Shown here: positions 8,190-62,743 of the stretch, piece after piece
Position numbering within the stretch: position 1 is the first letter of the stretch
Layout: each line of letters starts with the position of its first letter
DNA from: Paramacrobiotus metropolitanus
Lineage: Eukaryota > Tardigrada > Eutardigrada > Parachela > Macrobiotidae
Direction of reading: 5' to 3'
Length of the DNA stretch: 64,000 nt
Assembly: GCF_019649055.1 (NCBI RefSeq)
Contig: NW_026570250.1
Coordinates: 1,054,001-1,118,000, forward strand
The notes under the pieces: generated by a model
What the model saw: the letters and a program-made list of their open reading frames with translations, nothing else
Told to the model about the DNA's origin: nothing
The model's database searches: none
Made by a program: the position numbers and the translations under genes

Positions 8190-8505
8190 GTTGCGGTGCC
8201 GCCTTTACACTTGTGTGGTTACAGTCGCGTGGTAACGCTGCGCTGCTAACTTTCGCGCGCTTGCGTTATATCCCTTAGTCTCGCTTGGTTAAGTTACGCC
8301 GCTAATTCTCGCTTGCTCTCGTTACGCCGCTCAAACTTTTGTGATCGCGTTACATCGCTTGCTCTATTGTGGTTACGTTACGCCGGTTACAGTGGCAATT
8401 CGCATGCGCACGGTACGCCGCCTACTCCCGCTTGGTTACTATACATCGCATCCTCTTCTGTGCTCACCTTATGCCGCTTACTCTCTTGTGGTTACGTTAT
8501 GCCGC
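8190..8505. repeat. Minisatellite A, left part in Helitron 1
   Basis: Degenerate 28-30-bp units of the type ttgtggttacgttacgccgc with variable spacers. The array stops at the Polinton insertion and resumes at 17211. Removing 8506-17210 restores a normal repeat unit. Confidence 0.8.
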
Positions 8506-8543
8506 ACTACTATAGACGGCTGTATAGGCGCTTTTCCCACGGT
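8506..8543 (+). repeat. Polinton left terminal inverted repeat
   Basis: 38 bp identical to the reverse complement of 17167-17204, flanked outside by TGCCGC. Confidence 0.9.
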
Positions 8544-9916
8544 GTGACCTCGTGGGAACCGGCTGCCGTGACCTTTGTTCCGACGTAACTGCATACAAGA
8601 TAGCCGGCATAAATTACGGACTGATATACATAAGAACCTAATAAAGATATTAATTGAAATTATTAGCACATTGTAATAAGCCAAATTAACATTCTTGTTA
8701 AGTAAATTATAGTTTATGTTCAAAAAGTTTTACTGTATTCGTGCACGTGCTAACTAGATATTAGCAAATTAAAATCAGTATAGTAAATTTTACTATTATT
8801 ACACTTATTTCAAAAACAGAAATTTAATTAAATATTATTTCTTTGTAAACAGCGCAATTCCACACAGTTGTCCGCGATGTATGCTGCGCTGACAACGGCT
8901 GCACCGGCTAATTAATATGCCGCAATACGGTAAAAATTGTGACATACCATTTGGCCAAGCACGATACAGCTCAGTGCTTCCAGTTGGATTCACTTTTGGC
9001 GGTCTCTTTGAAAACTGTTAAATTGTATCAACAAACAGTTACATTAATATTTATCTTCATTGTGATGTCAGGAAAGAGAAGGCGGATGTGTAGCAAGCAA
9101 CAGGTTAAAACCCACTGCAGGCTTATCAGTTCGTCATTTCAAGAATTGCTACATAGTGCCAGTTTTCAAGTCAGTTATACGAGGAATCGCTGTTCGAAAT
9201 TATTTTCACTAAGTGGATATCCTTCGAACGTCGGACATTATGGCGGATAGCATTCAAGGTCAGACTAAATTAAATTACCATTATGTAATGTTTATACGAA
9301 GTATCATCGAAAGGACTATTGGAAAGTAAAATATTTTTGAATTAAGAAAGATTTCTTCTCTTAAAAATCTGTTCTATTAAAATTCTGAAATTTCGAATTA
9401 GGACTACATTAATTTACTGAAAATCTGTATATATATACTGAAAATTCAATTATTATTACTTTTGTAAAATTTTAACAAATGAAACAAGCTGCAACGACTC
9501 CCAAATACGTTGTGCCAATCTGATACAACGCCCCCCCCCTTACGTTATGCCAAACCTGGTGCAACCTGGCTGCCGCCGGACAGCGTGAGTGCGGAACCTG
9601 CCTGGCCGTGTCGGGGACGTGGATTATGTCACTAATCCATCGGTCTACCGCTGCCGGCATCGCGTATATGCGCCTGGAAAACTGTGCATCGGGTCTTAAC
9701 GTTACGCAGAAGCAAAACAGCCATGGGTGAAAATACGGCATATTCCGGATGGTGGTGTCAGAGAAATGCGTGAACTCCGCAAGGTCATCAGCAGCCTGTC
9801 GTACAGGTTAGTCAGTTACTGTGGCTTATTGAGAAAAATGTTTATTTGTATCAACGATACATATTTCCGGCTGGAAATTTTTCAAAGTCAACGCTACTTG
9901 TACAACAAGGTTGTAT
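8544..9916. other. Polinton left interior, no clear gene
   Basis: Mostly AT-rich. A GC-richer stretch at about 9520-9810 contains a C9 run (9529-9538) and an exon-like segment reading VKIRHIPDGGVREMRELRKV before a donor at about 9808. I do not recognise it. Confidence 0.35.
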
Positions 9917-10077
9917 TCATTACTGCATGTGCGTTGGTTAGTTGTATCTGTACAAATCACGCACACATCTATACAACTAAGGCACTTCTGCAATTCCCGT
10001 TGGCTGGCCAGCGCTACTTGTATAGATGTATACGTATTCTGTACACATACAACTATCCAATGCACATGCAATAATAG
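9917..10077. repeat. Imperfect fold-back repeat inside the Polinton
   Basis: About 60 bp (9917-9977; includes tgcatgtgcgttggttag) recurs inverted at 10017-10077 (includes ctatccaatgcacatgca), with a loop of about 40 nt. It could fold as a long RNA hairpin or be a small MITE. No target duplication is clear. Confidence 0.6.
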
Positions 10078-10448
10078 TGCAGGTGCATGTAAGTATCATT
10101 TGCTAATCGGATCGGATATTACAGTTAGAACGACATCCGATGACGGAGCGCATTCTGTTATCAGCCGGTGGTGATTCATGGGTGAGTGCAAATGTGCGAG
10201 TCTGTGGTCCAAGCAGCAATAATGCATGACTGCATGCACGTAGTTCAGTTTATCAAAACAAACAAACTGCACGGACCACCGGAAACGAACTCGTATCGCT
10301 ATCGTAAAACCATATGTTACAAGATGCAGTATTGTCTTCCTGAATAATACAAAATTGTAATTATTTCAAGTACTGTATAATGGTTTCGCAATTATATAAA
10401 TTATCATGAATTCCTTTCGATTATTTCTTGTTTGAATTTTTGTCTTAG

Positions 10449-10639
10449 GTCTTGTGATAAACGGTCAGCCATGTGATCCAGAGAAGGTGATCATGCAATG
10501 CGCATCTACCCGAAAAGAACGGATCTTCTGTAATGGAAGCGGATGTAGCGGCATTAGTCTGTTGGGCGGGAAGTGTCTGGCTCTGCATCTGGGCAGTATT
10601 CTGGCGCAACGGGAAGCGTTTTTGGCCGAGCACATGTTG
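10449..10639 (+). other. Putative orphan exon inside the Polinton
   Basis: 191 nt between a good acceptor (tttgtcttag) and donor (gtaagt). It is open, GC-richer than its surroundings, reads LVINGQPCDPEKVIMQCAST and continues to FLAEHML. No family is recognised. It may belong to the same captured host segment as the TBL2 exons downstream. Confidence 0.35.
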
Positions 10640-11336
10640 GTAAGTCTGGCACATTAATTTTTGTTTCCTCAACCCACAAGTTGTATGGCACAGTAATATT
10701 TGTGTACGCTTTTAGCGATTGCACTGCGGTTGATCATGATTGAGTGCCATTGTATACTTGGTGCCGGTTTGGTCAAGCACCATTTGTAAGCGCCTGTTCG
10801 TTTGTAGGTGAACTATTTATTGAAGTTTGATCTTTTTTTTAATTGAGTGCAACCATGACCGCTATACAGATACAGCGAACTGCAGTTCGTTTGTGATACC
10901 TTGCACGGTTGCATACGTAGTTTTCGGTCTTATCAATTTATTGGCAATATATTCGCTGAGTTTAACTCGTGAATGTAATGCATGACGGTTCGTTTTATTT
11001 TTTTATTTCTTGTAGAATTTTTTTTGATGTTTTGATTTTTATTCTCTAAAATAGCTCGCATAAATCTTTTTCTGAAATTTTGAAAAATTTCTTTATATAA
11101 TATTGTAGTTAATGTTTTAAAGTCTAATTTATCGTTGCAACATTTAATTAGATTTTTTCGGGAAGGTCAAAAGGGTTGTTTATAAAATAGCGGTGGAATT
11201 GCATAGCAGTCTGTCTGGTCATGACATATTTATATCCACTTCCCGGGTGAAGTAATCAATAAACTGATTTTTCTACCTGCGTTTGCCTGTGATCTTGCTA
11301 TTTGATCTGCGTGCTTAGTGAGCGTTTCCTTGGCAG

Positions 11337-12526
11337 AAGCAAGCGCATCAACCTGGAGCTGGACCATGCGTTGTTGATCCGCTTCAGTCCCGACAACAAG
11401 TACGTTGGTAAATCACTTTTTTGCCACTAATTGCCTTGAAATTATGTAATTAATTACAGTTGGATTTTTTAATCTGGTACCAGCCTGTTCGCATTATATT
11501 AAAGCCATAGACAAAATCAATTAACATTCGAAAAATCTCACTTTAGGTACGTAATGATAACCCTTGATTAACAATTGATTATCGATTTATCGAATATTCT
11601 AATTTAACGATCGTCAGTGCTTTGGAAAAATAAGGTGCCGGTCTTTATTGTACAGAGCCGTGATCGGGCGGATGCACAACGCCGATGAGGTGTGCGTGTT
11701 CAAGCTGACGACGAACGCCAACGGACAGCGCAACAAGCTCTGCACGACGTTACCAATCAGGTACGGGATTTTTATCCTGTTTTCGCGTCATCTGATTTTT
11801 TTTTCATCTAAATTTATCGGTATGTGGTGGGTGATCAGGCGGCACACGCCAACGGCGAGATCCGCTGCATGGACATCCAGTGCAACGGCAAGTTCATCAT
11901 GACGGCCCACGACAACGCTGCCATCCACCTCTGGCCCATCAAGGGCGGCGCGCCGCTGGCCTCCATCGTCACCAACCTCGGCGTTCTGCATTCCGCGCAG
12001 ATCTCGCCCTGTGGTCGCTTCATTGCCGCATCCGGTAATTTCATTTTATATTTGCATATATTAAGATCGTGTTGTATATTTTGTGGTACCGTCGTTAGTC
12101 CGTGATTTGTTTGAAATTTTTTTATTATAGATGTTTCTGAATTTTGTTTTTATCAATTTTGCTGTATAGCAGCCGTATCTCAGTTACTGGTTATTTATGT
12201 ACACGTTTGATGGATGTACACGTATGTTTGATTACACGTATGTACACGTATATTTGATTAGACAGACATCAGTGTTTCGGTTACAGATTCGTTCAGGCTT
12301 CACGCCGGAAGTGCGGGCGTGGGCGATCGTGGCCGATAAATCCAGCGGCGACGTGTAGGCCGTGGAGAAGGCCTTCGAGCTGACCGGGCACAGCGTAGCC
12401 ATCCCGGCCTTCGGCCTCTCGGGCGATTCCACCCACATGCTCTCCGTCAGCAAGGACAAGTCCTTCCGCCTCTTTGACGTCAACGTAGACTACAATAAGC
12501 GCCAGTCTCCAGCGCCCTGGATCTGA
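11337..12526 (+). pseudogene. TBL2-like WD40 protein fragment captured in the Polinton
   Basis: TBL2 is an ER-anchored WD-repeat protein. Four GC-rich exons on the plus strand follow it in order: 11337-11399 (RINLELDHALLIRFSPDNK), 11656-11760 (NADEVCVFKL), 11839-12034 (NGKFIMTAHDNAAIHLWPIK, then ISPCGRFIAAS) and 12297-12526 (GFTPEVRAW, AFELTGHSVAIPAFGLSGDS, MLSVSKDKSFRLFDV). Introns with GT-AG ends are kept, so it was copied as genomic DNA, not cDNA. It is not functional as it stands: a TAG lies in frame at 12356-12358 after SSGDV, the phase between exons 2 and 3 does not match, and the N-terminal anchor and the last C-terminal repeats are missing (stop after SPAPWI). Confidence 0.75.
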
Positions 12527-13039
12527 CTGACTTCCCACGAACGGAATGCGTCGACACACGTCACCACAACGCACCTTTCTTGGCCCCGCCTCCCCCCCTC
12601 CCTGTGACCCACCTCGCCCCCCCCCCTCTTTTTCTGACCCCACCCCCATTGCTTTTCATTTAAATTAACGAAAATATGGAATACTGTAGTTAATGTTAGA
12701 AGAGATATCGGTACAACAGGAGGAAGTTAGAAGAGATATCGGTACAATAGGGGAAAATTTTACGCGGTCATTTAGTGTACTTTGTTCTTTGGGTTCTAGG
12801 TATCAATGGCGCTAAGCCAGTGGTGGGCGAAGTACTAAATGCGTTGGTAGACGCAGTGGTGGCGGTAAGCATTTGCCTAATTGGTTAGCATCGAATTCAT
12901 GTAAACCACTTCCGCAATTCCAACCTCCCATTTTCCCGTAATACTGATGGCGCTTTTTAATCTGGTGGTCCATTCCGCAGCATTGTTATTGGGATGCTGG
13001 GCCAGCGAAGAATCCGAAACAAGGGTAACATAAAAAGGC
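12527..13039. other. Non-coding Polinton interior with short repeats
   Basis: Holds a C-rich stretch (12580-12650) and a near-perfect direct repeat of gttagaagagatatcggtac at about 12697 and 12727. No gene seen. Confidence 0.4.
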
Positions 13040-14068
13040 TTATCCCGGGCTGCCATCGCTGCACAAGGCTAATTCAGGCTCGTAAAATTTTCCTTGAATT
13101 ACCTCACCGGCTAGGTCCTCGACCTCGTACACTGGTTCTGGTATGTGCCGTATAACACGCTGCACCTTAAATACTTCACGAGAAAAATTTGCTTCATAGC
13201 CTTTCTTAAACACGGACTTGTCTACAGCAATTCGTACGCTATCGCCTACTTTAAACTTTGGTGGATGTTGTGGTGAGTTCAACAGCATAACGCGGTAGAG
13301 CGTGTTAAAACTTCAAGAGAATTACTGTCGTCAACGTCCGCCGGTGCTTTTCCGTGAGCCGAAGTGGGTACTTGGTTGATTGCGTTAATAATGTCTTGCA
13401 GTACGTCGTAGCATTTATGGCTTTTGCGTACTTCAAAGAGCCGCCATAGGCGATTTTTTATGGTACGAATCGCACGCTCCGCCATAGCGCATTTAATGTC
13501 GCTATTTTCTGAAGAAAACATGTGGATTTTGCGTTGTTTTAGTAAGCTTTTCACTTCCGAATTATAAAACTCTTTTCCTACAATGATCAAAGCATTCTGG
13601 TTATGTAATAGAATAATGAGTACAAAAAGACACTAGAGTACCTTTGTCGAATTGTATTCTTTCCAAAGCAGGGTAGCCATATCGATCGAGAATCTTTTCA
13701 AGCGCTGCTGCCACTTTGATTCCGCTTTTGTTAAGCACCGGTTCGCACGCCATTTTTCGTGAAAAACAATCAATTGCTACAACGATAAACTTGAAATGCT
13801 TGTTTTCCTTGCTGTATTTTGAAACATCCATCAGGTCCACCTGAAGCTGGACGCCTTTGTCCAGTACCACGATGGGATTTCTTTGGAATTTGTAACGTCT
13901 TGGCTTATGTAGTGTGTAGGCATCCAAGCTTTCCAAAACCTGCTGCGCCTCTTTCCGGCTTGGACGAGGAGGGCTGCAATAACGCTGGAGCCGACATAGA
14001 CCGCCTAGGCTGGCAACGTGCTGGGGATTGGAATACGTCTGTTGCACCGTCTTTTCGTTCTTTTTCAT
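13040..14068 (-). pseudogene. Polinton-type integrase (rve + chromo-like C-terminus), with an intron and a frameshift
   Basis: Retroviral-type DDE integrase that inserts Polinton DNA. Start at 14068. The N-terminal zinc-less segment leads to DAYTLHKPRR, then the catalytic core: first Asp in VQLQVDLMD, second Asp in IQFDKG, Glu in MAERAIRTIKNRLW, and a C-terminal chromo/SH3-like part (KFKVGDSVRIAV, KGYEANFSREVF, VYEVEDLAGEVI). The second Asp lies at the edge of exon 1; a 64-nt GT-AG intron (13578-13641) then interrupts the motif and its removal restores the frame. A further single-base shift near 13280-13310 separates the core from the C-terminal part, so this copy is probably inactive. Spacing and motifs match Polinton rather than gypsy integrases. 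Confidence 0.85.
13578..13641 (-). other. 64-nt spliceosomal intron in integrase
   Basis: On the minus strand the exon ends GACAAAG, the intron runs gtactctag...ttgtag, and the exon resumes GAAAAGAG. The length is not a multiple of three and carries stops. Joining the exons recreates the conserved DKG-EF catalytic motif. Confidence 0.75.
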
Positions 14069-14154
14069 CCTCTTCGTCTTGACAACAAGATGAAAAACAG
14101 TTTAGTCGCATATTTTCTCCAACATGCACCGATATGGGAGCGCAGGGATTCATT

Positions 14155-14637
14155 TCACCATTGAATCCAACCGCTGCCCACTTGATTTTCCGCTTTTTGT
14201 TTTGCGACGTTTCCAGCAGCACCTCGGGGTCGCAGTTCTCGGGGAACCTTGGTATAAAGACGTTTTGTTCGCTTCTTTTTTTCCTTTACCGGTGATACTG
14301 TTTGAAAGCTCGGGAACGATGCAAAGTCTACCTTCTGCTTAGGGGCAGGTTCTGGTTGCTGCAACGGTACTTGTGGCGGGGGTACTGCCAAGGTGGGATC
14401 AGGACCCGCATTAGGTCGCAAAGCTAAATACCTTTCCAGTGTTTTACTCAGCATATCAGCCTTTTGCCACTGACTTAAATCTTTGCGTTGTAAAATATTT
14501 GAAGTAATTGAATCCAGGGACAAAATTTCAAAAGCTTCGGCTGGCTCCCTGATTGAAGAAAAGTCAGGTGGGCTTGGCTGTGGTGAAGTACCGGTTGGCT
14601 TAATCATTTCTTTTGGCACAAGATACCGTACTTCCAT
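14155..14637 (-). CDS. Polinton protein of unknown function, Pro- then Lys-rich
   Basis: 160 residues, starting 6 nt after the stop of the pX-like gene in the same direction. The N-terminus reads MEVRYLVPKEMIKP, followed by an acidic helical middle (SLDSITSNILQRKDLSQWQK), a proline-rich stretch (PPPQVPLQQPEPAPK) and a basic tail (KEKKKRTKRLYTK). Composition suggests a virion core or DNA-associated protein. I do not recognise the family. Confidence 0.6.
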   Translation of the reverse strand: MEVRYLVPKEMIKPTGTSPQPSPPDFSSIREPAEAFEILSLDSITSNILQRKDLSQWQKADMLSKTLERYLALRPNAGPDPTLAVPPPQVPLQQPEPAPKQKVDFASFPSFQTVSPVKEKKKRTKRLYTKVPRELRPRGAAGNVAKQKAENQVGSGWIQW

Positions 14638-14643
14638 TCCTAG

Positions 14644-14970
14644 CTATTGAGTTAAGACGTTGGCAACAACGGAGGCTAAGATAGGTAACACTGCAGCCAA
14701 AAATCCTCCCTTTTGCAATAAAATATCTTTTTTAGCTTTCATAGGATGACGGCGTAAAGCAGGAAGCTTTAAGGGTTTACGCCAACGTTTGCACACAGTT
14801 AACTGCTGCGGAGTTAGCTGGGCTGTCCCTTTCCCACAGTTTAGCGCAACCTCTGAGAAAGCCTTCAAATGCTTGCGATTGCAAAAACTGATCAGCTGGC
14901 GACGCTGTGCTGGCTTGAGTGATCTTAGTGTAATCAATAAAGGTGCTAAAGAATTCACGTTAGCGGACAT
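14644..14970 (-). CDS. pX-like virion core protein of a Polinton
   Basis: Start chosen at ATG 14970, giving 108 residues; it overlaps the end of the ATPase gene by 11 nt. A basic helical N-terminal part (LRSLKPAQRRQLISFCNRKH, then a lysine-poor FSEVALNCGKG segment) leads to a basic stretch (KRWRKPLKLPALRRHPMKAK) and ends with ILLQKGGFLAAVLPILASV, a glycine-led hydrophobic segment. That layout is typical of the small pX-type proteins of animal Polintons/adintoviruses, compared with adenovirus core peptide pX. The role is inferred by family layout: condensing DNA or meeting membranes in the capsid. Confidence 0.6.
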   Translation of the reverse strand: MSANVNSLAPLLITLRSLKPAQRRQLISFCNRKHLKAFSEVALNCGKGTAQLTPQQLTVCKRWRKPLKLPALRRHPMKAKKDILLQKGGFLAAVLPILASVVANVLTQ

Positions 14971-15646
14971 TTTTGGGCAGTGTGGATTTTGAAGGGTCCA
15001 AATATAAACGTTGCACCTCACCTGGTAGGATATGCGACCGCAGTCTTAAATACCCTGGCGAATCCGTTCGCAAGTTGATAACCAGAGGTTGATATGGCTC
15101 TTCGGTTGCTTTAGCGTAGGCTGCAGGTAAATATGGAAGTCCCATCTGATTGGATAAAATTTTAACCTGATTCACATCGCGCACATTGCGAAATAACAGA
15201 ATGTATTGACTGTTTAAATGTATGTCTCTGCTAGATTTTCCTTGCTTAAAAAGATTGTTGACAACGTAAATCACTGTCAAATTTTTATGGTGTATATCTT
15301 GGGTAAAAGGTTTACTTCCACTTTTGCTCTCAACAATGCTTGTTGCCAAATCATCTAAAATTAATAATTTAGGCTCGCTCCCAGCGAAAAAGTGATCGTT
15401 TTCCAAAATTTCTGTTACACCGTGAGTGAATTCTATTGATGGCACTTTGTTTTGCAATAGTTCGTAATCTTCCTGCCACTCAGTGTAGGCATAAACGATT
15501 CGAGCAAATTTAACATCAAACATATCATCGCGATTGATTAGCAGTTTAGTGATGTAACGACTCTTCCCAGCCTGCGAGGCACCAACCACTACGATACCAG
15601 CAGGAGTGCGCAAACGAGTTTCAAAATCGACTATGGGAAATGCCAT
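14960..15646 (-). CDS. FtsK/HerA-type genome-packaging ATPase
   Basis: Packaging motor ATPase of the A32-like group found in Polintons. Start taken at ATG 15646 (MAFPIVDFETRLRTPAGIVV), giving 228 residues. Walker A is GASQAGKSR at about residues 23-31 and Walker B is KLLILDDL. A downstream Asn-rich sensor-like segment (LTVIYVVNNLF) and an arginine (SSRDIHL) fit the family. The length is close to the usual 200-250. An upstream in-frame start at 15745 exists but its extension looks unlike coding sequence. The gene lies in a minus-strand run ATPase, pX, unknown, integrase. The frame is open throughout. Confidence 0.8.
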   Translation of the reverse strand: MAFPIVDFETRLRTPAGIVVVGASQAGKSRYITKLLINRDDMFDVKFARIVYAYTEWQEDYELLQNKVPSIEFTHGVTEILENDHFFAGSEPKLLILDDLATSIVESKSGSKPFTQDIHHKNLTVIYVVNNLFKQGKSSRDIHLNSQYILLFRNVRDVNQVKILSNQMGLPYLPAAYAKATEEPYQPLVINLRTDSPGYLRLRSHILPGEVQRLYLDPSKSTLPKNVR

Positions 15647-15699
15647 TTGTAAACTGTATTTAAGGAATCGATCACACAGCAGACACAAAACAGTTAAAA

Positions 15700-15923
15700 T
15701 GGACGCGGTAGTTGAATTATTCTCTGTAACCACCAACGGGTCCACCTACATTGAACGATTATCCGTTTCTTGTTGCGCTTGTCGACATGTGCAGTCCTAT
15801 AAACTGCAAATACCTAAATGTCTGCATGCCTGGAATTGGAACGCACCTTTGACACCAGGTGCCCATTATAAATTAAGGCACAGTTGTCCAGAATTACAAG
15901 GCACAGTTGTCCAGTGTTTTTGA
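15700..15923 (+). CDS. Small Polinton ORF, unknown
   Basis: ATG at 15700, 74 residues, begins MDAVVELFSVTTNGSTYIER and contains CCACRH. The start codon is divergent from the ATPase. A 23-bp tandem duplication (ggcacagttgtccag, at 15880 and about 15903) lies near its end and may have shifted the frame into the next ORF. Confidence 0.4.
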
Positions 15924-16173
15924 TGACATTGTGGAAACTTTTACGGGACGTTACTGGATCAAAGGCGAATCGCGAACGGAAATTTTGCGCCAGCATTTGC
16001 CTCTTGTATACAATTTGGATGACATTGGATGCCCACCCTATGATCACCTTTCCACTAAACCACACGCACTTTTTAACAGAGCTGTGGCTTTCACAGACTG
16101 GCTGGTCAAGCATGATAACGAACATAGTAGCGACAGCGAATCTGAACCAGATGCTAGACCTGGATTATATTGA
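15907..16173 (+). CDS. Polinton ORF with acidic tail, overlaps TBP
   Basis: Open frame of up to 88 residues reading VFDDIVETFTGRYWIKGESR and ending in an acidic tail (HDNEHSSDSESEPDARPG). Composition looks like real protein; the start is unclear and it may be the continuation of the preceding small ORF. It overlaps the TBP gene by 62 nt in another frame, as is common in compact viral genomes. Function unknown. Confidence 0.45.
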   Translation: MSSVFDDIVETFTGRYWIKGESRTEILRQHLPLVYNLDDIGCPPYDHLSTKPHALFNRAVAFTDWLVKHDNEHSSDSESEPDARPGLY

Positions 16174-16654
16174 TATCATGGATGGCATGGTCGAATACCG
16201 TCCACAGAAATTTTCGGGACTCCTAATGCGAAGGTATAAAACTTATCCATCTCACTGCCAGATCTACAGCAATGGTAAAATCACCGTTAATGGCGCAAAT
16301 ACGATACGGAAGGCTCGCAATTTGGCACATCGTTACTGCAAAGCGATCCAGGATCTTGGGTTTAAAGGTGTTACAGTGTCGCAGTTTCAGATTGTGAATA
16401 TTGTTGCGTCCGTTAATTTACAGCGTAAACTGAACCTTGAAATGCTTTATGAAAAACTGCCGATTTCATACATGAAACTGTATAATCCAGAACGATTCCC
16501 AGGTTTAAGCATGCGTGTGGCTTCTTGTACCGCTGTTCTTTTTCACTCTGGTAAAGTCAATTTGCTTGGTGCGAAGACCGAAGCTATGCTTAATGCAGCG
16601 GAACAAGAGCTGTTGGAAGTAGTTAATAAATACAATCCTGTTTCCCCTGGTTAA
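16112..16654 (+). CDS. TATA-binding protein (TBP) core encoded by the Polinton
   Basis: 180 residues from ATG 16112, which is almost exactly the length of the saddle-shaped TBP core with no N-terminal extension. The two imperfect repeats are visible: NIVATANLNQ ... YRPQKFSGLLMR ... IYSNGKITVNGA and NIVASVNLQR ... YNPERFPGLSMR ... LFHSGKVNLLGAK. The residues that intercalate into the TATA minor groove are kept as F34, Y52, F129 and F144 (one Phe changed to Tyr). TBP nucleates transcription by all three nuclear polymerases. The gene is intronless, overlaps an upstream ORF by 62 nt and lies just before two Pol III-like hairpin units. The sequence is far diverged from cellular TBP, which argues for a long viral history rather than a fresh capture. 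Confidence 0.85.
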   Translation: MITNIVATANLNQMLDLDYIDIMDGMVEYRPQKFSGLLMRRYKTYPSHCQIYSNGKITVNGANTIRKARNLAHRYCKAIQDLGFKGVTVSQFQIVNIVASVNLQRKLNLEMLYEKLPISYMKLYNPERFPGLSMRVASCTAVLFHSGKVNLLGAKTEAMLNAAEQELLEVVNKYNPVSPG

Positions 16655-16694
16655 GTAAGATGTATGAAGGCTGTTGTATAAGTAAATAAAGATA

Positions 16695-16817
16695 GTAAGC
16701 GCCGTGGTCGAATGGTAAGGGAACTAAACTGCAGAGAAGCAGTCGAGTTGAAATGTGTAGCGACTGCTTCTCTGCAGTTTAGCTCCCGCGTTCCATTCCC
16801 CTAAAGCCCCCTTTTTT
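16695..16817 (+). ncRNA. tRNA-like Pol III unit with long hairpin, copy 1
   Basis: A box TGGTCGAATGGT (16705-16716), then a 27-bp stem (16719-16745 with 16761-16787, one mismatch) with a 15-nt loop where an anticodon arm would be, then a B-box-like GCGTTCCATTCCC (16788-16800) and a T6 terminator at 16812. Not a normal tRNA: the hairpin is far too long. It looks like a Pol III transcript carrying a small-RNA precursor. Confidence 0.6.
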
Positions 16818-16869
16818 GTTATTATAGCCATTCCCGACGGTGCACACTATTTCTTCCAGTAGAAAATTG

Positions 16870-16989
16870 GATCCGCAGCCGAACGGGTTGGGGCTGAAAT
16901 ATAATAATAATGCAGTTGGGTAGATATAACACACTAACTGCGTTCTTATTATTCAGCCCCCACGTTCAAATCCGCTACTTATTTCTTTT
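16870..16989 (+). ncRNA. tRNA-like Pol III unit with long hairpin, copy 2
   Basis: A-box-like AGCCGAACGGGTTGGGG (about 16876-16892), an imperfect stem (16889-16920 with 16934-16962), a canonical B box GTTCAAATCC (16964-16973) and T4 at 16986. Same architecture as the unit 150 bp upstream but a different stem sequence. Confidence 0.6.
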
Positions 16990-17166
16990 CGTTGTAGAAA
17001 AATATATAGACGTGTTTAATTATTTTTTAGGTTAAATAATTTTAATAACATATTAATATATTATGTTTTTATTATATTAATTATAAAAGAAATTTAAAAA
17101 TATATCCAACGGTGAGTCATTCGCCGAAAGGTCACGCTTTGGCGAAAGGTCATTCTCACGGGTGTG
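16990..17166. other. AT-rich right end of the Polinton
   Basis: AT-rich sequence, then at 17111-17160 two copies of a gcgaaaggtcac-type motif just inside the right inverted repeat. No gene. Confidence 0.4.
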
Positions 17167-17204
17167 ACCGTGGGAAAAGCGCCTATACAGCCGTCTATAG
17201 TAGT
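17167..17204 (-). repeat. Polinton right terminal inverted repeat
   Basis: Inverted match to 8506-8543, 38/38. TGCCGC target duplication follows at 17205-17210. Confidence 0.9.
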
Positions 17205-17210
17205 TGCCGC

Positions 17211-27924: not shown

Positions 27925-30900
27925 TTAAAGGTTTGTAAAAACTTCGCGGAAAACAACGTTTCTGGTTTTCAGCTTTTTGACTGGAAGCACAACCTTAATT
28001 GCGTCAAAAGCTCGAGCTCTAGAGAATGCAACATACAACTGCCCGTGACAAAATACGGAAGATTTTAATACTATCCCAACTCTCTCGAAGGTTTGCCCTT
28101 GCGCCTTGTTGATAGCCATGACAAATGCAATTCGCACAGGAAACTGAAGACGGCTAAAATGGAATGGTAACTGATCGCCGGTCGGTTGCAACTTTATTCG
28201 GGATATTAACACCCGCTTTCCTTTGCTGCTTCCACTTAGTACTTTGCAGTCTAAGCTGTACTTGTTCAATTTTCGAATGATCATCCTGGTCCCATTGCAG
28301 AGGCCGTGCTTTGCATCTAAATTGCGGAGGAGCATTACCACTGTGTTGACTTTAAGCGCCAGTTCGTGGGGCGGCAATCCACTCGGAGTAAGCGTATACA
28401 AAAATTCCTCAGGAAATTCAGTTGGATCTTCTCCATTTTCGCAAACTGGGGTATCAACACTTGTGTAAGTAACAGCATCTCCTGGTTTGAACCAAGCGGT
28501 CAACATGGTCTCTCGATTCGTTGCGGCAGCTAAGGCTTCCTCTTCTTGGCCTGCTGTAAAGTAAACATCCTGTTCTTCCGGCTTGTGGACGGGCAGTCGC
28601 ACAATCGTATGGGAAACGCAGTGCATTTCGTATTTAAAAAGTCGCCAGCATGCTTCCGGGGCGCTTATATATCGGGACTCAACAAACGCCGCAATTTCAT
28701 CCAAATTCAACACTCGTTCCCCTTGGGCGTTGACTATGCTCATTAAAGCAACATCATTCCCCTTGAAAATGTACTTGTAGATGTATTTGAAACTCTTTAC
28801 AGTTGCACAAATTTCCACATTGATGTGGCAGTTGTATTTAAGCAACATGTAAGGGTTGTACGGAACGATCCACTGGTTATCCACCAAACGATTGCCAACG
28901 GTCATAGATCGCCCATTATCGCGGCGCCGGTACTCCGGGTAACCGTCTTTGTTGGGGTTGGTCTCAGCGCAGAAAGGTTTCGGAAATTTTGCGTGGCATT
29001 CGCCTGTTTCTCTCATACATACAGACTGTGGGTTTAGCTTTCCACACGGACCATGAACCATAAAGCTTTTGACGGCCTCATGCAACCGCGGATGAAGCAC
29101 TGGATCAGGAATTTCGCAGCAGACCACTTTACCAATAATTTCAGCTTCGACCTTCGCATCTCTTTTGTCAACAATCAACAGCAAGTGGCAATGAGGAAGT
29201 CCACGTTTTTGAAATTCAATTGTCTGTAATACAAATTCTATTATGTTTAAAATCACAAACGTTAACGCAATTTCTTCATCTCAACAAATGCTAAGCGACT
29301 GAAAAAAACCTTACTGCGAAAGAATTTTCGGCTGAACCGCAAGTAACTAATGCAATAAAATTAGTTCAAAAGAAATTTTAAAATGAAACCAGAAGGCTAA
29401 AGGATCGAGTATCCGACCTGATGTAAAAGTAGTTAATCCCACTTACAAAACAGAATCCATCCACTCGGCCGAAAACTTCATTGTCAACGATATCTTTCAC
29501 GAGTTCCTTAAGCTTCAGCTTGAACACACGGGCTACTAAGTCGGGACGGTCAGTGGCTTTCTGGCCGGGGAACAGATGCTCTTCAATTTCTTGACATCTC
29601 GCATTCATTGTCATTGTAAGGAATATCCACGGCTTTCCAAATTTTTGACACATGGCCATTGCGTCTTGATAGTTTTGACGCATTGCTCGCGGCCCCCCAC
29701 CAAAACTGGAGCTAAGCACCACGGAGCGCCCAGGCTGCATACCTCGCTCTGTAGCCGCTGTCGCTAAAAAATCCGACAACCCCTGGTAGCTTTCAACGCG
29801 CAGTTTCTTTTGGTTCAGCTTCTGGAACTGCAGCCTGGACGCTTCAACTTTAAGATAAGAATCCACTGTATACTGCTGGAAAAGTGCTTTTCCATGAAGT
29901 ATTGGATTGAACTCCTCTCGGTCGGCTATTTGATAAGCATAGAACTGCAGAACCCAAAAATACACGTCAAACATCAAATTGCATAACAGACCACCAACTA
30001 CTAAAAAAATGGAAAACATTTGTAGTAAACAGAATTTTGTTCATACTTCAAGTAGTGATACGCTTGCTCTTCCCTTCTCACGTTTTAACTGTGGATGAAA
30101 CCCTTTATTTCCAAGTGGGAACAACAGTGGATAACACATTGGATCGCAGTCGCCGTTCAACGAAGGAATCGTACGGAGGCCGCCAGTTTTTGAATGCACC
30201 GCAAGATGATGTTCAGGAAACTCTCCAACGGCGTTACCGACAATAACGGCAGCAACTTCGTGCAAGCTGGAGCAGTATATCGCCTTTGAGGTTTTCGCCG
30301 ATCGTTATCAAAGACCAATTTAACATCCAAAGGCGGTCGTTGTTCACAGCTTGCTTTTTGCTGTTCCTCAACTTCCACCTCCCGCATCATACGGTATGCC
30401 TCAGCAAAAGGATTGCACTTGCGAAGCGTTGTCTCGAGCTCTACCAAGAGCGGAAGTTGCAGTGAGCTGTTCACAGGGTCAGCTAAACGAACTTCTACCG
30501 CATCTGCGCTGTCCAAGAAATAGAGCTGTCCGTATTTCGGTGAATCATTGCTGGAAGGGTGGGCAGGACTGAGATAATGATACAGTTGGCCGGATGTACG
30601 ATAAGTCATTGGTCCAGTTCCCGGAAGACAATCAGTTTTGCAACAACCGACGCAAATACTAACGCACTATTATACTTTCGTATGTTAGCAAAAAAGCTTT
30701 TGCTGGAAAAATGACTGCCTGTCAGCAACTGATGCAAGATTTCTGGAAACCTTGCGGAATATACCGGCTCCAACTTAACACTCCCTTTTTGGCAACAACT
30801 TGTGAAAAGAGTGTGGTCATTCTGAGTAGCCTCTTCTTTAAAATGCCGCGCTCGACAGGCTTTGCAAATATAAGCCATGGGTCCCAGGTTGTGTAATGAA

Positions 30901-37569: not shown

Positions 37570-40439
37570 TTAAACATTAAAAAAACAACCAAAATCGTTA
37601 GCGCTGTCAGTCATTTTAGAACGCATACCCAACGTGCCCAAAACAGCGGCAGCATTTCCTTTTACAACAGCTAGGCTAAATCTCTGCTTTAAAAATGCGG
37701 TAGAGCGTGGCTCCCCTGTCGCGTCGCGAATCCTTCTGCCGACGAAACGAATAAGCTCCGAAAATGCCGGGCCAAAAGTTCCAAAGGTCTCGACCGCAAG
37801 GGGATAAAGAAGATATCCCATTCTTTCCACAAAGGCGTATTTACGACGTTTACTGTCTTCGGCCAAGAGCGCAACACTGCCGGATGCACTCGCGCTTGCC
37901 CGCACATGCGATAAGGCTACTGTGTCCCAACATGTAGCGTCCCAAACTAGCGCTTTGCCGTCACGTACAGGGACGAGAGTCATGCCGTCTGGTCGTGTAT
38001 TGTTTATACCGGACAGTCCCAGTGGCTCGCTTTGGCATGGGTACCCAGCATGTTCCAAAGCCCGCTTTGTTATATCGTTGAGTTCCACATGTCTAGAGTC
38101 TAGAGTCTAGACCATCTTCCTCGGCTGCTGGAACAGGATAGGCCGTGGTGACCATTTGTTTCCACATGGCTTCCGCAGTTCACACAGTCGTGTTCTTCTA
38201 CAGCTGGAAGTCCAAACCGAAGTGCGATGCCAATACGCACTTCTTCATCCCGCAAGAATGTGCGCAAATTAGGTGCAGGCAAAGCATTTAGCCATGCGCC
38301 CGAATCACGGTGTAGCGCAGCTAACAGTACGGCTCTGTTTGCTTCGTCGGTGGTCGTCCGCTTCATTAACAGCACTGCTTGGTCAATCAACGGTCGATCC
38401 CATGCGGATTGGAACTTTCTCTGATCCATAGCGGGAGGTTCACAGTTTGTCTCTTCTGACCATCGCAGCACAAGTGGATCAAGTAGTGTCGCTGCTGCAG
38501 GGTGGTAGATCATGGAAACTAAGGGAGTAACCGAATACGCCGATGCCAGAAAGGCAGGAAAAACTAGCGCTGTCGTACTCCGTAGCCCCATACCCCCATC
38601 CCTGATAGGAAGCGACATCTGGCTCCACTGTGCATCGTTCAAGCGGATGTTAAGGATGGACTGCAAACCGGCACGGACAATGTCGTCCATGGATGTCGTC
38701 AACGCCACGTGCTCGTAACATCTGCTTGTGCGGAAACCGTAGAGCAGTTTCGGTATCAGTAAACAATTTCGCAGGAGGTACAAGCTGTAATGTGCTGGTA
38801 TCAATTTGAGTCGCGATATGAAATACTCCAGCTGCAAGGATTTACTGCGTAGGAAAGTCTTGCACGCCGCTGTCGTTAAAGGAGCTCCAAGGAGAGTAAA
38901 TTCTTCTTCCCTGGAAACGGCCATTTCAGGAAAAGCATTGAGCACCATTTGTACAGCATGTAAACGGTCCGCAGTGAATTTTCCCACGCTGTAAACTTCG
39001 CATTTGCTGAGATTGAGCTCTAGTCCCATTCTGAAACCGCGTGCAATGATAAGTCGTATTGCTGCAATAACTTTTTCCGCGAAACCAGCTAAAGTGACAT
39101 CATCAAGGTAGCCAACTGCTATATCACACTCCAAGTCTTCAAAGAGTGGTAGTGTTGCAAGGCCATAACCAAACGGACCAGCGGGATCGCCTTGTTGCAC
39201 ACCAGTTTCTGAAGACAGCAGGGACGTACCGCAAGCCAGGTGTGACGTATACCGATAGGACTGCCAGAAGTACCGAAAGTACGCAGGGAACTTGTCACGT
39301 ACAGCAGCCAATAAAACGTCCCGGCGCAATGTATTGAAGGCATTTCTGAAATCGAGCTTTACAATAACGCGCGCGTCCGCATGTGTCGTTTCCACGTAGC
39401 TCCGAACAGCATGCGCGGCCGCTTCAGCGCCCCCTCTTACGCCGACGCCGAGTTGCACGGGGGAAAACATTGCGGCTGCTTCTTCAGCGCACCTGTTGCT
39501 AACAATCTTGGAAACCAATCGCCGTATCGTGTCCCCTACGGCGATTGGTCTCACTCCTCCATCTTTTTTTCCCAGTGGAATTAAATTAGCGCCGAAAAAA
39601 TACGGCCTAATATCTTCAGGTATATCCGTCTTGAGAATCATATTTGTCAGATCAGTGAGTGCGAGGCAAAGATCGCTTTGTTGATCGTCCTTGCGATTTA
39701 GGAGGTCCTTCAAATGTTGCGGGCGAAGGCCAAAAACTCCTGCTGCTGAGCCAGTGGGAAAACTAAAAACGGCAGTCATTACCTCGGCAGGAGAAACAAG
39801 TGGTGGTAAGAAGGAGTCATCAGGTGCTGGAGGGAATTGGCAGTCGTTGGGTGCTGGCGGGTGCTTATCTCGTAGTACTTCAGCATTGATCTCGGCCAGT
39901 TTTTCATCTTCCAGCAGTATCCTAATAGCTCCTTTAATATTAGCATCTTGGAACATGGAGTTTACCGAAGCACGTAGGCTATCTTGTGCGGAAGTATTAT
40001 TTCTGGCTTGCTCGCGACGGGGCAGAGTATGGCGGTTTGCAAGGGACAGATCTGCCAGGTTCTTTCTAATTACGGAGGTGAGAGATTCCCTGCGAAGAGT
40101 TTTGGTAGGTGGCAGCGATAAAGCGGTCGGTGCAAACAACAGCAGTGCGGTCCAGGTAGCAGATGAATTCTTGCGCACGCAGTTCCTGATCAGATCAGTC
40201 AGCACTTGAGCACATTGGCGACGCACCGCTTTAGGCACTCGTTTTGGAATGTGGTATCGGTCGCCTTCCAAGAAGGAACGTAAGGGGTGCTTCTGAGTCC
40301 CTCCAGGCGTAGGTAATGGAGGCTGGGCAGAGCAGGAACCCGTGGCGTGCTTGCGCGAACATGCCTTCAGATGAGCGGCGAATCCAGCTCCCTGCGTGAA
40401 ACACTTTTTGCAGTGCGGGCAAGGCTGATCAGGAGCCAT
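37570..40439 (-). pseudogene. Non-LTR retrotransposon ORF (RT + restriction-like endonuclease, R2/R4 type)
   Basis: Starts at ATG 40439. An N-terminal zinc finger (CPHCKKCF ... HLKAC) leads to reverse transcriptase motifs (GSAAGVFGLRPQHLKDLL, GGVRPIAVGDTIRRLVSKI, VIVKLDFRNAFNTL, GVQQGDPAGPFGYGLA and the catalytic VGYLDDV), then a CCHC knuckle (DCVNCGSHVETNGHHGLSC) and, in the next frame, a PD-(D/E)XK endonuclease (RPDGMTLVPV ... LVWDATCWDT). That order is typical of early-branching LINEs with one ORF and no APE nuclease. The two frames (38100-40439 and 37570-38088) are split by a repeat expansion at 38091-38111. A poly(A) signal (aataaag on the minus strand) lies near 37500. 5' end not defined. 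Confidence 0.85.
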
Positions 40440-49158: not shown

Positions 49159-50468
49159 CGAGGGTCACTCAGAAAGTAATGATAATCGGTATCAGCAAAT
49201 AATCATATAATTATGAACTAATTTTTTAAAAACTGTAGCATTCATAACTAGATCATAGGGCAATGGCCGTGGCCATACCGCCTACGGCTGGCGACTGGCA
49301 TGCATCTATGCGCAGTCGAGTCGAGCTGTTCACTGCACTAGTCATTAAACATGGCTAATTTAACGAAGCGCGACTTTCGTGCTATCATCTTAGAAAAATT
49401 TTTAGAAAAGAAAAGCGCGCGCAGTTGTCATGCTGAGTTGAAAAGTTTGCACCCTGATTCTTCTCCTTCTTATCCTACTGTTGCGCGTTGGTTCCAGCGA
49501 TTTCGCACTGAGCATTTTGACCTCGACGATGGTGCCAGAACTGGAAGACCTCCTACAGCGACCACGGCGAAGAACTCGGACGCAGTGAGAGAGCTGATCG
49601 AACACGATCCCCATATTACCGTCAGACAGATAGCAGAAGAACTGCAGATATCGGAGGGAACGGTTTGTGGGATAGTCCGCAGTGAGCTTGGTCTGCGCAA
49701 GGTTTGTCAGCGATGGGTCCCTCATTTATTAACTCCTGCCCAGATGGAAGTCCGCGTCGAATTGGCCCAGAACATCTTTGACGTTATTTCGACCGAACGC
49801 AAATATGACGTGTACACAGAGGATGAATCCTGGTTTTCATACTATGATCCCCTAACGAAGCAGCAGAATCAAGTTTGGATCGGAAACGACGACCCCACCC
49901 CCACTAGTGTCAAGCGTTCCAGGAGTACCCGTAAGCTGATGTACGCTTTTATTTCCAGCAGGCGTGGCGTTTTTCTGAAATCGGCTCTACGGCGTGGCAC
50001 AACATTGAATTCACAGTGGTACTGCGCAAATGTTCTTCAGCCTTTCTTTGATAAGTTCAGAAAAAAGAGACCCCAAAGCCGCGTAAGGAAGATCATTTAT
50101 CACCATGATAATGCACGTCCCCATACATCGAATGCCACAATGAATTTTATCTCGGCATCGCGAATGAAAATCCTCCCACATCCACCATACTCGCCTGACC
50201 TGGCACCTCACGACTTCAAGATTTTCCCAACGTTGAAGAAATTGTTACGTGGTAAAAAGTTTGAAAATGATGAAGAACTGGAAGAAAATATCAATACAGC
50301 GATCTCTAATTTACCACCTAATTTCTTTTCGAAAATGTTTGATGAGTGGCAGACTAGATGTTTGCGTTGCATAGAGATGAAGGGGCAGTATTTTGAGAAA
50401 ATACGAGGAAAGCGCTGATGCAATAAAAAATCGTGCGATAGTTATCATTACTTTCTGAGTGACCCTCG
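49159..50468 (+). mobile_element. Complete mariner transposon
   Basis: Perfect 27-bp inverted ends starting CGAGGGTCACTCAGAAAGTA, with TA target duplication at 49157-49158 and 50469-50470. Total 1,310 bp with one intact transposase ORF. Likely young and possibly active. Confidence 0.92.
49351..50418 (+). CDS. Mariner transposase, intact
   Basis: 355 residues, cut-and-paste transposase of the IS630-Tc1-mariner superfamily. The N-terminal paired helix-turn-helix region (about residues 1-110; includes GRPPTATTAKN) binds the inverted ends. The catalytic DDE/D core has D158 (YTEDESWF), D253 (HHDNARPHT) and D288 (YSPDLAPHD); 34 residues separate the last two, the D34D spacing of true mariners. The WVPHLLT and YSPDLAP motifs of the family are kept. 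No stop or shift; length is within the usual 340-355. Confidence 0.92.
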   Translation: MANLTKRDFRAIILEKFLEKKSARSCHAELKSLHPDSSPSYPTVARWFQRFRTEHFDLDDGARTGRPPTATTAKNSDAVRELIEHDPHITVRQIAEELQISEGTVCGIVRSELGLRKVCQRWVPHLLTPAQMEVRVELAQNIFDVISTERKYDVYTEDESWFSYYDPLTKQQNQVWIGNDDPTPTSVKRSRSTRKLMYAFISSRRGVFLKSALRRGTTLNSQWYCANVLQPFFDKFRKKRPQSRVRKIIYHHDNARPHTSNATMNFISASRMKILPHPPYSPDLAPHDFKIFPTLKKLLRGKKFENDEELEENINTAISNLPPNFFSKMFDEWQTRCLRCIEMKGQYFEKIRGKR

Positions 50469-59154: not shown

Positions 59155-60161
59155 TTGTTGGCTTATGGTGTACAGGTAAAGCTTAAACCAAGATTACCAG
59201 ACGGTAGCGTGAACTCCATGTGTACAAATCGGTACCTGATGGGTTGTAAATATGCCTACCCATAATGCTCTGACATAACATAAATACAGCAGATGTAAGT
59301 CCACCTTGTTTGCGCCATTGTTTCGCCGGGTTACTGCACTATCTCCTACCTAATCTGAACTGGCACTAAATGACTTCCACCGATATTTCCAGTGACACAG
59401 AACGCTCAGAAAGATCCACAATACTGAAAAAATTTTAAACAATAACTATTGGCCCCACGCAAATTGCTTGTAACATACTGGCTACGGCATAGAAATATTC
59501 AAAAATCGAAAGGATAACCTGGTTATTGTTTGATGGTAATTATTTTTTGTGATAAAGATTATGGTTGATTTTATGTGTCATGCGTTGTACTGTATGATTT
59601 GAGCGAATACTTTTTTCTTGGCCATGTCACAAACTTGGAGCAGTCGTAAATTCCCAAGGTGTGTTACCGGAAACAGTACTATGACTCAGAACTATGTTGC
59701 AGACGTTGCTCACTTGACGTTTTTTGTTGTTGTATATCCCATCCGTAAAATAAATTTTCCATACACGTTCATTAAATCCAAAGTATCAGCATGCGAAGTG
59801 ATGAGAAAGCGGTATGCTATCCCGTGCAAAAAATTACTCCGTTTAATGCTCGACGCGCGCCGCAGCTCCGCCTTCGGTTCTTGACCCACACAAATGGAAA
59901 AAAAATAAGATTTTTCAAAAACAAATTACGATGCAGATAGCAAACTTAGTGTTTCGTGAAAGCTGGAGCCATAAGAGCCCGCTCTAACTTTTGCTGGGTA
60001 AAATAGAGGTAACGCACAGTGTTGTATTTACTATTCCCCCAAAACCTTACTTGTTTTTTTTACTTTTCGTCTGACCATTAACTTTACTATTTACTTTACT
60101 TTTCATTTTTACTTCCTTTTTACGTTTTGTCGTAACCTTACTTACTTTTACGAACTGCGTA
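59155..60161. other. Intergenic region before the GC-rich coding block
   Basis: AT-rich, no gene seen. Composition changes abruptly at about 60160. Confidence 0.4.
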
Positions 60162-62725
60162 ATGACTAGTAAGCCCGCCACACCAGAAAGAACGGCCACA
60201 CCAGTTACAACTGTTGGCCCACAGTCGCCCAGGTTCATAAGGAAGAATAGGACTCCTCCAGAAGCAGAGGAACCTCCTTCGCAACGGTCACTTCCAGCAT
60301 GGAGAGGACCACCGATGGACTTGGAGCTGAATCCAACTCGCAAGCCCACTCCACCAGCGCGGAGTGGCCCCTCAAGGGACTTAGAACGCCCCGGCCCTAC
60401 CAGGCCTGGGCCACCCATATTAAAGCCTGCAACCAAAGAGCAGCCGACTTTGACACTTCGTGGCCTAACGACCACGAAGAAGAAGTCACCACCGAAGAAG
60501 TTCCCTGGGCAAGGCCATGTGCTTTCACCACCAGAGGAACGACCGCTCCCATCAGGGACAACGGAACCCTTGCGGGACGAGCCTCCAGCGAGGCATCGTA
60601 TTCGGTTGACCCCAACGGGCCCAACCAGCCATTACCAGATGGACCCGCATAACGAATTGGTTAGCGAGATCATAGAAGTTGATCTCCGCTTAAACCTTAC
60701 GGAAGAGGACATGCGCCAGCGGATACGCGCCGGCGACCCAGCCTTGACCGAACATGAAATTGACCGCACCAACCGGGGCTGTCAGCTGTTGGTCCAGGAA
60801 CGGAATATCCTCATCCGACGACTCATGGCTATGAGAAGTAAAAGCCAGGCCCTTCGCCAGCGCAAACTACCTGGCGAGATCATCGAACATGCAATCAATA
60901 TTCGAGGGCCACACATTAACCCAAGAGCTTGGACAGTGGAACCGCGCCCAAGACCAGGCCAGCCAGTGGAAGACCAACTCCCACCGGAGGAGGTCGAAAG
61001 CGATGAGGAAATTCCTCAATTCCCGGCAGCCTACTACGGCGTCCTGTCCAGCGATGAAGAAGACTTGGATAAGGATGTCCAAAGAGTTCTATATGAGACT
61101 GCACGGGTTAAATCTCCTCTACCGAGGAGATCGCCCCGCAAAAGTCGGTCTCCAGAGAAACGGACTTCCCCAGGCCGCGCCACATCGCAACCGGCGCGCA
61201 TGCTAAGTACGCCGGCCCCAGGACCGCCACCAGCCAGGTTCACACCGAGCCGGCCAGGCAAATTACATGTCAAAGAGAAGATCGATACCTCGCCTTCTCA
61301 AGAGCCAGTCATGACCACAGCGGTGGAACGAATCCCGGCACCAACGGTGGCCGCGGATTCCAAATTAGACGACGAAGTCCAAATCACCGTGACCGCACCA
61401 GCACCTGTGGTCCCGGAAACGGCTAAAATCGTCATTGAACTTCCGACCGAACAGGTGGAACAGATTCGGCCTTAATGCCCATGACCACTCTCAGTCCAAC
61501 GGAGCAGAGACACCTTGTGGCCCATGCGGAGCACAACGATAGAAGGCAGTATCCTTACCTCCTCAAGAAGAGACAAGAGGCTAAGGACCAGAATAAGCCG
61601 GATGACTATGAAATGCTAACGGAAATGCTTCGCCGGCTAGTGGACAGAATGCTCCACGATTACTGGAATCGAAGGCGCAAACGTTTTTTCCCCTCACCGA
61701 AGAAAGACCAAATGATGGCCCAACCGCTGTCATCGACTGCACCAACAGTAGTGTTGCCGAAAGCGTCTTCGGAGCCAGAGCCGATGGACACATCCCCGTC
61801 AGGGCCAGTTGTGGCGACGCCACAAGCTGAGCCAATACAGGCGAACCATCGAAGGCCAAAACGCCACCAAAGGCACCAGCTGACCAAAGTCAAGCAGGAG
61901 CGGGCCCAACGGCCGCAGCTCCAACAACTTTGTCAACCATGCCAGCCAAAGTGGACGACATACCCATTGGCCAGCCAGTAACTTTCCCCATAGCTGGGAC
62001 ATTGGAAGATTTGGCGATTGGCGCATCAGTGATCCACTCTGCCAACTCTCAAAGAGGCAAACAGCCGAGGAAAGCCAAGAAGCCAGAGGGCCAAACCGGC
62101 CAAACAGAATTATGAGAAGAGAAACGGGCCGAGACCTATACCAGTGTCTCGTCAGTGTCATTCGGCCCGTATGGCACTCGGCGAGGAGTTTAGAGGACTT
62201 CCGCTTGCGGACCGCGTACTGACGGCACCCTTTATGCGGCGGGTGGTCACTCTTATCCTTGACTCAGGTCTGCTGGTTCGCACACACCGCGACTGGACCA
62301 GCATGGCAGAAATCCATGTGGCCCATCGACCACAAGGACTTTCCCGTAGCAGAGACAATTACTTCCACCAAATCTGCCGAGCCATCGGGTACTTACATGA
62401 CCCAAGAGGATCCCCCTTGATGGACATTGCCAGGACAATTAACGCACTTTACTATAAGGGAACGATGGACCCATGGAAGCTCAGTGACCAACTAGTGAAC
62501 GAATTACTAGCATTGGTCAGAGATGGCGTCCTGGAAACAACTAATGCCTTCCGCGCCGAACCATTACGCTTCGCTGTCCCGGGATTTATCCCACAAAAGA
62601 CCCAACGGGGTCTGTACGTGTCGCACGGCGTTGGCACAAGATGGGACTCGAGCAGACGGAAAGCGGTAGGAGCGAAGGCTAAAGAAATGAAAGGCAGGGC
62701 CAAAGAGGACCCAACTACAACATGA
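60162..62725 (+). CDS. Unrecognised Pro/Lys-rich gene A with predicted winged-helix module
   Basis: Open frame 60162-61475 (437 residues): a disordered Pro/Thr/Arg-rich start, a helical middle (EDMRQRIRAGDPALTEHEID), an acidic SSDEEDLDKDVQR and SR/PR-rich stretch. Its TAA overlaps ATG 61475 (TAATG), where a second frame (to 61981) continues with YPYLLKKRQEAKDQNKPDD. Around 61835-61850 coding potential moves to another frame (TPPKAPADQSQAG, VDDIPIGQPVTFPIAGTL), and from 62144 back to a frame ending at 62725, whose 193 residues look like two winged helices (DRVLTAPFMRRVVTLILDSG, then SDQLVNELLALVRDGVLETT) and a basic tail. So there are two frame changes: either decay, sequence errors or unseen introns. 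Composition suggests a chromatin or nucleic-acid protein. Family unknown. Confidence 0.5.
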
Positions 62726-62743
62726 CCCAACTGGCCATACAAC

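Follow-up and report, generated by a model that had tools for sequence, protein, structure and literature searches.

A long-diverged TATA-binding protein gene in Polinton-like elements of the tardigrade Paramacrobiotus metropolitanus

Do small mobile elements of an animal genome carry a TATA-binding protein (TBP) of their own, and what would they use it for? The question is raised by a stretch of 64,000 nucleotides of the tardigrade Paramacrobiotus metropolitanus (contig NW_026570250.1, positions 1,054,001 to 1,118,000; hereafter the window), in which a first-pass annotation, made from the letters alone, had proposed a Polinton-like element that encodes a TBP and directs it to its own promoters. 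The open reading frame (ORF) in question (window 16112-16654, forward strand) is intact, with 180 residues and a stop, and both TBP repeats are evident from its translation and from the match to the Pfam TBP model (PF00352; 123.1 bits, E 4.1e-36, two stretches; cut-off 22.9). The solved structures closest to it by sequence are eukaryotic TBPs (at most 83 bits), and an AlphaFold2 model computed with 20 related sequences has a mean pLDDT of 93 and a pTM of 0.82. F34, Y52, F129 and F144, the four aromatic residues singled out in the annotation, all align to phenylalanines of the host TBP, and the asparagine pair corresponds to N4 and N96. In TBP, the four aromatics are the residues that intercalate into DNA.

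We searched 169.8 Mb of the genome (C numbers denote contigs, L numbers the stretches around TBP sites) by Pfam and by two protein searches, each scoring the best 150 candidates, with fragments included and hits merged within 1.5 kb. This yielded at least 175 listed TBP sites, one of which is the host gene, so that about 174 are non-host. Twenty-eight sites were picked from the Pfam hits by score and variety, 8 first and then 20 that were chosen after the first 8 had proved to be Polintons and while their own content was still unseen. Hidden Markov models (HMMs) made from the loci's own ORFs revealed Polinton genes at all 27 non-host loci examined and none at the host TBP locus (L014, on C4). 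Reciprocally, a listed TBP lies within 12 kb at 113 of 145 ATPase sites (merged from the best 150 of 405 candidates), where about 3.6 are expected by chance, and a listed ATPase lies within 12 kb of 117 of the 175 listed TBP sites. TBP and capsid proteins also share three further contigs in sequence databases, as paired by source and size: P0105 and P0107 with P0181 (ena, 21688 bases both), P0087 with P0185 (lgn, 20036 bases both) and P0082 with P0186 (ena, 27637 bases both). The linkage of TBP to Polinton genes asserted for the window is therefore a recurrent one.

Within P. metropolitanus, capsid-like proteins are found on C1, C16, C31, C44, C60 and C168. The NCBI protein P0106, a P. metropolitanus gene model named TATA-box-binding protein-like, matches the Polinton TBP of C60 at 130 of 131 residues, apart from a gap of 45 residues at what looks like an intron in the model; it is thus a Polinton gene. 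In many loci an ORF without a Pfam family, termed X, stands upstream of TBP on the same strand. ORFs of 403 and 407 residues in L019 (4550-5758) and L025 (4111-5331) end in TBP after more than 220 preceding residues, and X may share one frame with TBP there. Other TBP-bearing elements hold ORFs with a BIR domain (inhibitor of apoptosis) in L010 (3510-4184), L028 (3019-3633) and L036 (2992-3681), and L022 (2802-9901) is an inverted duplication of 3.2 kb whose arms are 99% alike and each carry pieces of TBP and ATPase.

The elements have the traits of Polintons and adintoviruses, namely terminal inverted repeats (TIRs) with a 6-bp duplication, DNA polymerase B (PolB), integrase, ATPase and protease. 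The window element (8506-17204, 8699 bp) is bounded by a perfect 38-bp inverted repeat (38/38 bases complementary), which bears out the Polinton-type TIRs of the first-pass annotation. The accompanying 6-bp target-site duplication is present, as TGCCGC adjoins both ends, but is weak evidence at this copy because the flanking DNA is a minisatellite, and TGCCGC is also part of its repeat unit. It is better seen in a related family, whose terminus (AGAAGAAACAG...) was found 21 times with at most 3 mismatches: eight pairs of ends face each other 13-16 kb apart, all enclosing TBP hits, five ends are unpaired, and identical 6-bp flanks are present in seven of the eight pairs (C128 being the exception), the match at C69 being weak because this pair sits in a TA repeat. 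PolB was recognized by PF03175 in L011 and L015 and by its own HMM at further loci; the integrase by rve in L013 (34.2 bits, over the cut-off) and, below the cut-off, in the window (26.5 bits); the ATPase by Pox_A32 in L013 (19.1 bits, below the cut-off); and the protease by Peptidase_C5 in L011 (22.4 bits, cut-off 21.3) and, below the cut-off, in L010 (20.2 bits). The candidate for the double jelly-roll major capsid protein has relatives that NCBI names F54H12.2-like, and among those with an organism name are proteins of spiders, a rotifer, a sea slug and Hypsibius; by sequence, the capsid had no match in the PDB. In PHROGs the element polymerase was matched, and TBP, X, ATPase and capsid had no match at E 0.01.

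We then asked how this TBP relates to other TBPs. A profile of 20 TBPs matched 1611 proteins; among the 120 listed, 63 form a set apart, scoring at least 156 bits, and the scores of other TBPs start lower, at 146 bits. One of these 63 bears an organism name (P. metropolitanus), the sources being jgi, ena, lgn and ncbi contigs, most of which are taken to be metagenomes. In a quick tree of 99 rows, 24 Polinton TBPs (one from the window, 23 from the 27 loci; L022, L026, L030 and L031, pieces only, were omitted) and 55 database TBPs formed one group (SH-aLRT 100, stem 1.02), with the host, human and algal TBPs outside it and P0002 nearest to the window pair (support 91). In a careful tree of 55 rows (20 of the 24 Polinton and 20 of the 55 database TBPs, with 5 of 8 archaeal rows, 10 of 11 eukaryotic rows and no phage), forcing the window TBP together with the host and human TBPs cost 248.7 log units (approximately unbiased, AU, test; p 3.8e-7). 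The window ORF thus stands apart from the host's TBP family, and a recent capture of the host TBP, the counter-explanation raised with the first-pass annotation, is rejected by the tree and the AU test. The eukaryotic rows of the careful tree were not one group (2 changes), so that the Polinton clade may have arisen among eukaryotic TBPs; giant-virus, mirusvirus and TRF sequences were in neither tree. The TBPs of L028 and L036 form a very long-branched pair (branch 3.28) and lie within larger ORFs beside ATPase, integrase and BIR ORFs, an order that the genes of L031 resemble. Scans of IMG/VR with the TBP and ATPase alignments gave 75 and 129 pattern-matching stretches, respectively, none confirmed as a relative.

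The gene is under purifying selection, as judged from its substitutions: dN/dS is 0.06-0.29 for 13 of the 16 pairs. Among 87 members of the clade, some of them fragments, N takes the place of the host's first-repeat threonine in 87/87, and L that of the second-repeat threonine in 79 of the 82 with a residue there. In TBP-TATA structures both threonines read the minor groove. The asparagine pair is kept (80/82 and 86/87), as are the four aromatics (85/85, 87/87, 83/84 and 82/82), and H, C and Q of the first repeat are each found in more than 80 of 86. At the host PELFPGL, the stretch of TBP that faces TFIIB, E is retained in 79/84, F in 83/84 and G in 78/83.

On this basis, we consider it probable that the elements represent a diverse clade of animal Polintons, integrated DNA viruses of adintovirus-like type, in which a long-diverged viral TBP is a standing gene, serving as an element-specific switch factor from early to capsid-module promoters. 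Its most likely role, judged from sequence, is that of an element-specific promoter factor. TBP would be made as an early-type product, enter the nucleus, bind and bend DNA at element promoters via its four aromatics and, by way of its C-terminal stirrup, bring in TFIIB and RNA polymerase II of the host. The replacement of both minor-groove threonines across the clade makes it probable that the protein favours sites that differ from the canonical TATA box, and such a preference would shift transcription from early genes to those of the capsid module. The TATA boxes found before some early-type genes would be read by the host TBP, the capsid-module genes mostly have none, and a PC4-like protein would assist the early-to-late shift. 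A switch factor for capsid-module genes would fit both the changed DNA-reading residues and the partly kept TFIIB face, and we infer that the element uses its TBP at its own promoters, as the first-pass annotation had supposed.

Two sets of observations bear on the promoters and the cofactor. First, PC4 is the top Pfam match of all eight family ORFs tested, over the cut-off in three (L010, L016 and L027) and weak in five; by sequence the PC4 ORF had no match in the PDB, and ten more ORFs yielded no further general transcription factor over the cut-off. Second, of 130 upstream regions, 19 contain TATAAA in their final 120 bp, where first-order Markov copies give 6.5 (sd 2.1), and 26 contain TCAGT, where such copies give 12.6; several TATA boxes are followed by TCAGT or TCATT about 25-36 bp on. 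Within 130 bp upstream, TATAWA precedes PC4 in 7/10, the N-terminal part of PolB in 3/6, X in 3/16 and TBP in 3/24 cases; it also precedes the major capsid protein (1/12, at -6), the GSGF ORF (1/11) and PV (2/9, both looking like ATPase coding sequence), and there are none for ATPase (0/10), integrase (0/11), protease (0/10) and PY (0/10). PC4, the PolB N-terminal part and, in some families, X or TBP therefore look fit for the host TBP, and the capsid-module genes mostly do not, the labels early and late being given by analogy with other DNA viruses. A candidate late-promoter motif, TATTTAAGG (15 in the loci versus 0-4 in shuffles), was dropped, as visual inspection placed the matches examined within conserved coding sequence of the ATPase.

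Several points weigh against a switch factor that is standard equipment of these elements. At 32 of the 145 ATPase sites there is no listed TBP nearby, and these may lack the gene or have had it missed. The L012/L018 pair has a dN/dS of 1.18 (the L018 tail differs), and dS is saturated in two further pairs. The TFIIB-facing stretch is kept in part, with P in 58/83 and L in 66/83, and reads NPERFPGL in the window versus EPELFPGL in the host. Over whole loci, TATAAAAG is not above shuffles (19 versus 11-20). The TATA counts are not independent because many upstream regions are homologous, and the late-gene upstream regions overlap coding sequence; an early promoter for TBP itself is evident in some families only, as 3/16 X and 3/24 TBP starts have a TATA box; and the search for a late-promoter motif gave nothing that could be told apart from conservation of coding sequence.

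A more far-reaching proposal, to which we give some though lesser credence than an even chance, is that animal Polintons possess an orthogonal transcription start, in which a viral TBP with altered minor-groove readout and a PC4-like cofactor open late promoters that the host TBP cannot read. If so, this would be, to our knowledge, the smallest DNA virus system of eukaryotes that has a core general transcription factor of its own and relies on the host for RNA polymerase II. An unlikely alternative is a decoy in host takeover: instead of starting element genes, the viral TBP would tie up TFIIB, TFIID or the regulators of TBP, and transcription of the host would drop as TBP-independent element genes go on. 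The loss of the minor-groove threonines with E, F and G of the TFIIB-facing stretch kept would suit a decoy, but a pure decoy has no need of the asparagine pair and aromatics that are retained.

Quite improbable, too, is a function at the element ends, where TBP would bend the termini for replication, packaging or integration and not for transcription. A TATA-like site does lie about 15-25 bp from the end in both TIR families (TGTATAGG; TGTATAAAC), but the TIRs seen belong to just two families, short A+T-rich words are frequent, and we know of no Polinton that uses TBP at its ends. Another role was suggested by two strong shRNA-like hairpins 3' of the window TBP (Table 1), which have a T run and flanks that by eye resemble the A and B boxes of tRNA genes, as compared with the A/B-box consensus, and which might be small RNAs made by Pol III, or pri-miRNAs, encoded by the element. 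That TBP acts in a TFIIIB-like complex to produce short hairpin RNAs of this kind is, in our estimate, very unlikely: the first hairpin is identical in the C168 copy, but among four other elements L012, L033 and L035 have different hairpins with weaker pairing and L013 has none, Rfam matches are below threshold and ARAGORN found no tRNA in the window. Finally, that a cellular TBP was copied into one element and amplified along as a functionless passenger is hardly credible, for although a number of TBP copies are fragments or carry stops, the gene belongs to a single deep clade that also takes in proteins from other sources, is under purifying selection and has nearly invariant clade-specific residues.

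The copy in the window is itself defective, with an internal deletion, broken integrase and X ORFs and a cut-off PY-like ORF; TBP, the ATPase and the PV-like ORF are still open, and the loci-derived HMMs found neither PolB nor capsid among the ORFs of this deleted copy. From right to left it comprises the two hairpins, TBP, the broken X, the ATPase, the PV-like ORF, a further ORF, the three-frame integrase, the cut-off PY-like ORF, element sequence, a captured fragment and the left arm. The terminus is also present at C168, C155 and C17. C168 holds a second copy (96% identity over 4.3 kb, 98% for its TBP); the stretch of element sequence between the cut-off PY-like ORF and the captured fragment, from about 12512, is 86% alike to C168. 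Two ends were seen on C168, with unlike flanks (CTTTTC and TACCTC), the right one equal to the left flank on C155, so that the two contigs may each hold a part of one element. The captured fragment, whose WD40 matches are weak and under the Pfam cut-off, is an apparent capture of host gene sequence by the Polinton, as its position between the TIRs suggests.

Table 1. Features of the Polinton-like element in the window (window positions)
Feature	Position	Strand	Remarks
Left target-site duplication TGCCGC	8500..8505	.	flank
Left terminal inverted repeat, 38 bp	8506..8543	+	also at C168, C155, C17
Left arm	8506..10277	.	8600-10277 75-76% to C168:129766-131345 and (to 10242) C155:259465-261007
Captured host sequence (apparent), two matching pieces, WD40-like exons	11083..12516	+	78-92% to C48:362304-363961
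FYVTL (PY-like) Polinton ORF fragment, cut off	12880..13068	-	
Integrase (rve), three broken frames	13043..14101	-	
ORF without Pfam family, like ORFs in L009, L021, L029 (by eye)	14155..14643	-	
PV-like family ORF, open; weak Adeno_PX match	14644..15045	-	
Packaging-type ATPase, 261 aa, open	14960..15745	-	
X (LD.DWF) ORF directly upstream of TBP; split into two frames	15558..16170	+	
TATA-binding protein gene, 180 codons, intact	16112..16654	+	
Hairpin, 27-nt arms 96% complementary, z -10.0	16719..16787	+	T run at about 16811; A-box-like TGGTCGAATGG upstream
Second hairpin, z -5.5	16887..16963	+	
Right terminal inverted repeat, 38 bp	17167..17204	-	
Right target-site duplication TGCCGC	17205..17210	.	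flank

Elsewhere in the window we noted Helitron-type N-terminal and Pif1-like helicase ORFs (27925-30019), an open reverse transcriptase ORF of 779 residues (38100-40439), an open Mariner-type transposase ORF of 355 residues (49351-50418) and a block of open frames with high G+C and a strong A-over-T skew (60047-63890), four ORFs of which matched no Pfam family over the cut-off.

The many Polinton copies with their own TBP suggest that a small animal DNA virus brings along part of the machinery for transcription start. In titles, abstract openings and passages of the literature on Polintons, Mavericks, adintoviruses, Polinton-like viruses and tardigrades (including PMC10675990 and PMC11244446), with few subscription papers covered, we found no link of TBP to animal Polintons, and by word count TATA, TBP and PC4 are absent from the main text of a survey of adintoviruses and their kin (PMC11071296). 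Among the element ORFs put to Pfam, which were a part of all ORFs, no RNA polymerase was met. A TBP that is retained across deep lineages and under selection in small animal elements, with defined changes at its DNA-reading residues, is a natural case for studying the evolution of TBP specificity, and it suggests for Polintons an early-to-late switch that can be put to the test.

Compared with known systems, the tardigrade elements share with the Polintons/Mavericks and adintoviruses of animals the TIRs with 6-bp duplication, PolB, rve integrase, A32/FtsK-like ATPase, adenain-like protease and F54H12.2-like capsid relatives, and add the TBP and PC4-like ORFs. The host TBP on C4 has the same two repeats, aromatics and asparagine pair, but it keeps both threonines, and its core, which spans two exons or more, closely resembles human TBP, unlike the Polinton TBP. 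The haloarchaeal tailed viruses HJTV-2 and HRTV-9 likewise encode a TBP (28-29% identity) and have archaeal hosts; that of HJTV-2 lies on a long branch outside the Polinton clade in the quick tree. TBP is reported in 59% of mirusvirus genomes (PMC10132985), together with TFIIB in YSLPV1-3 (PMC4602308) and alongside the virus's own RNA polymerase in megavirus (PMC11464507). Mirusviruses and giant viruses thus also encode a TBP but are very large, whereas the tardigrade TIR pairs stand 13-16 kb apart: a viral TBP, known before from very large eukaryotic viruses and some archaeal viruses, is here a gene of small animal elements.
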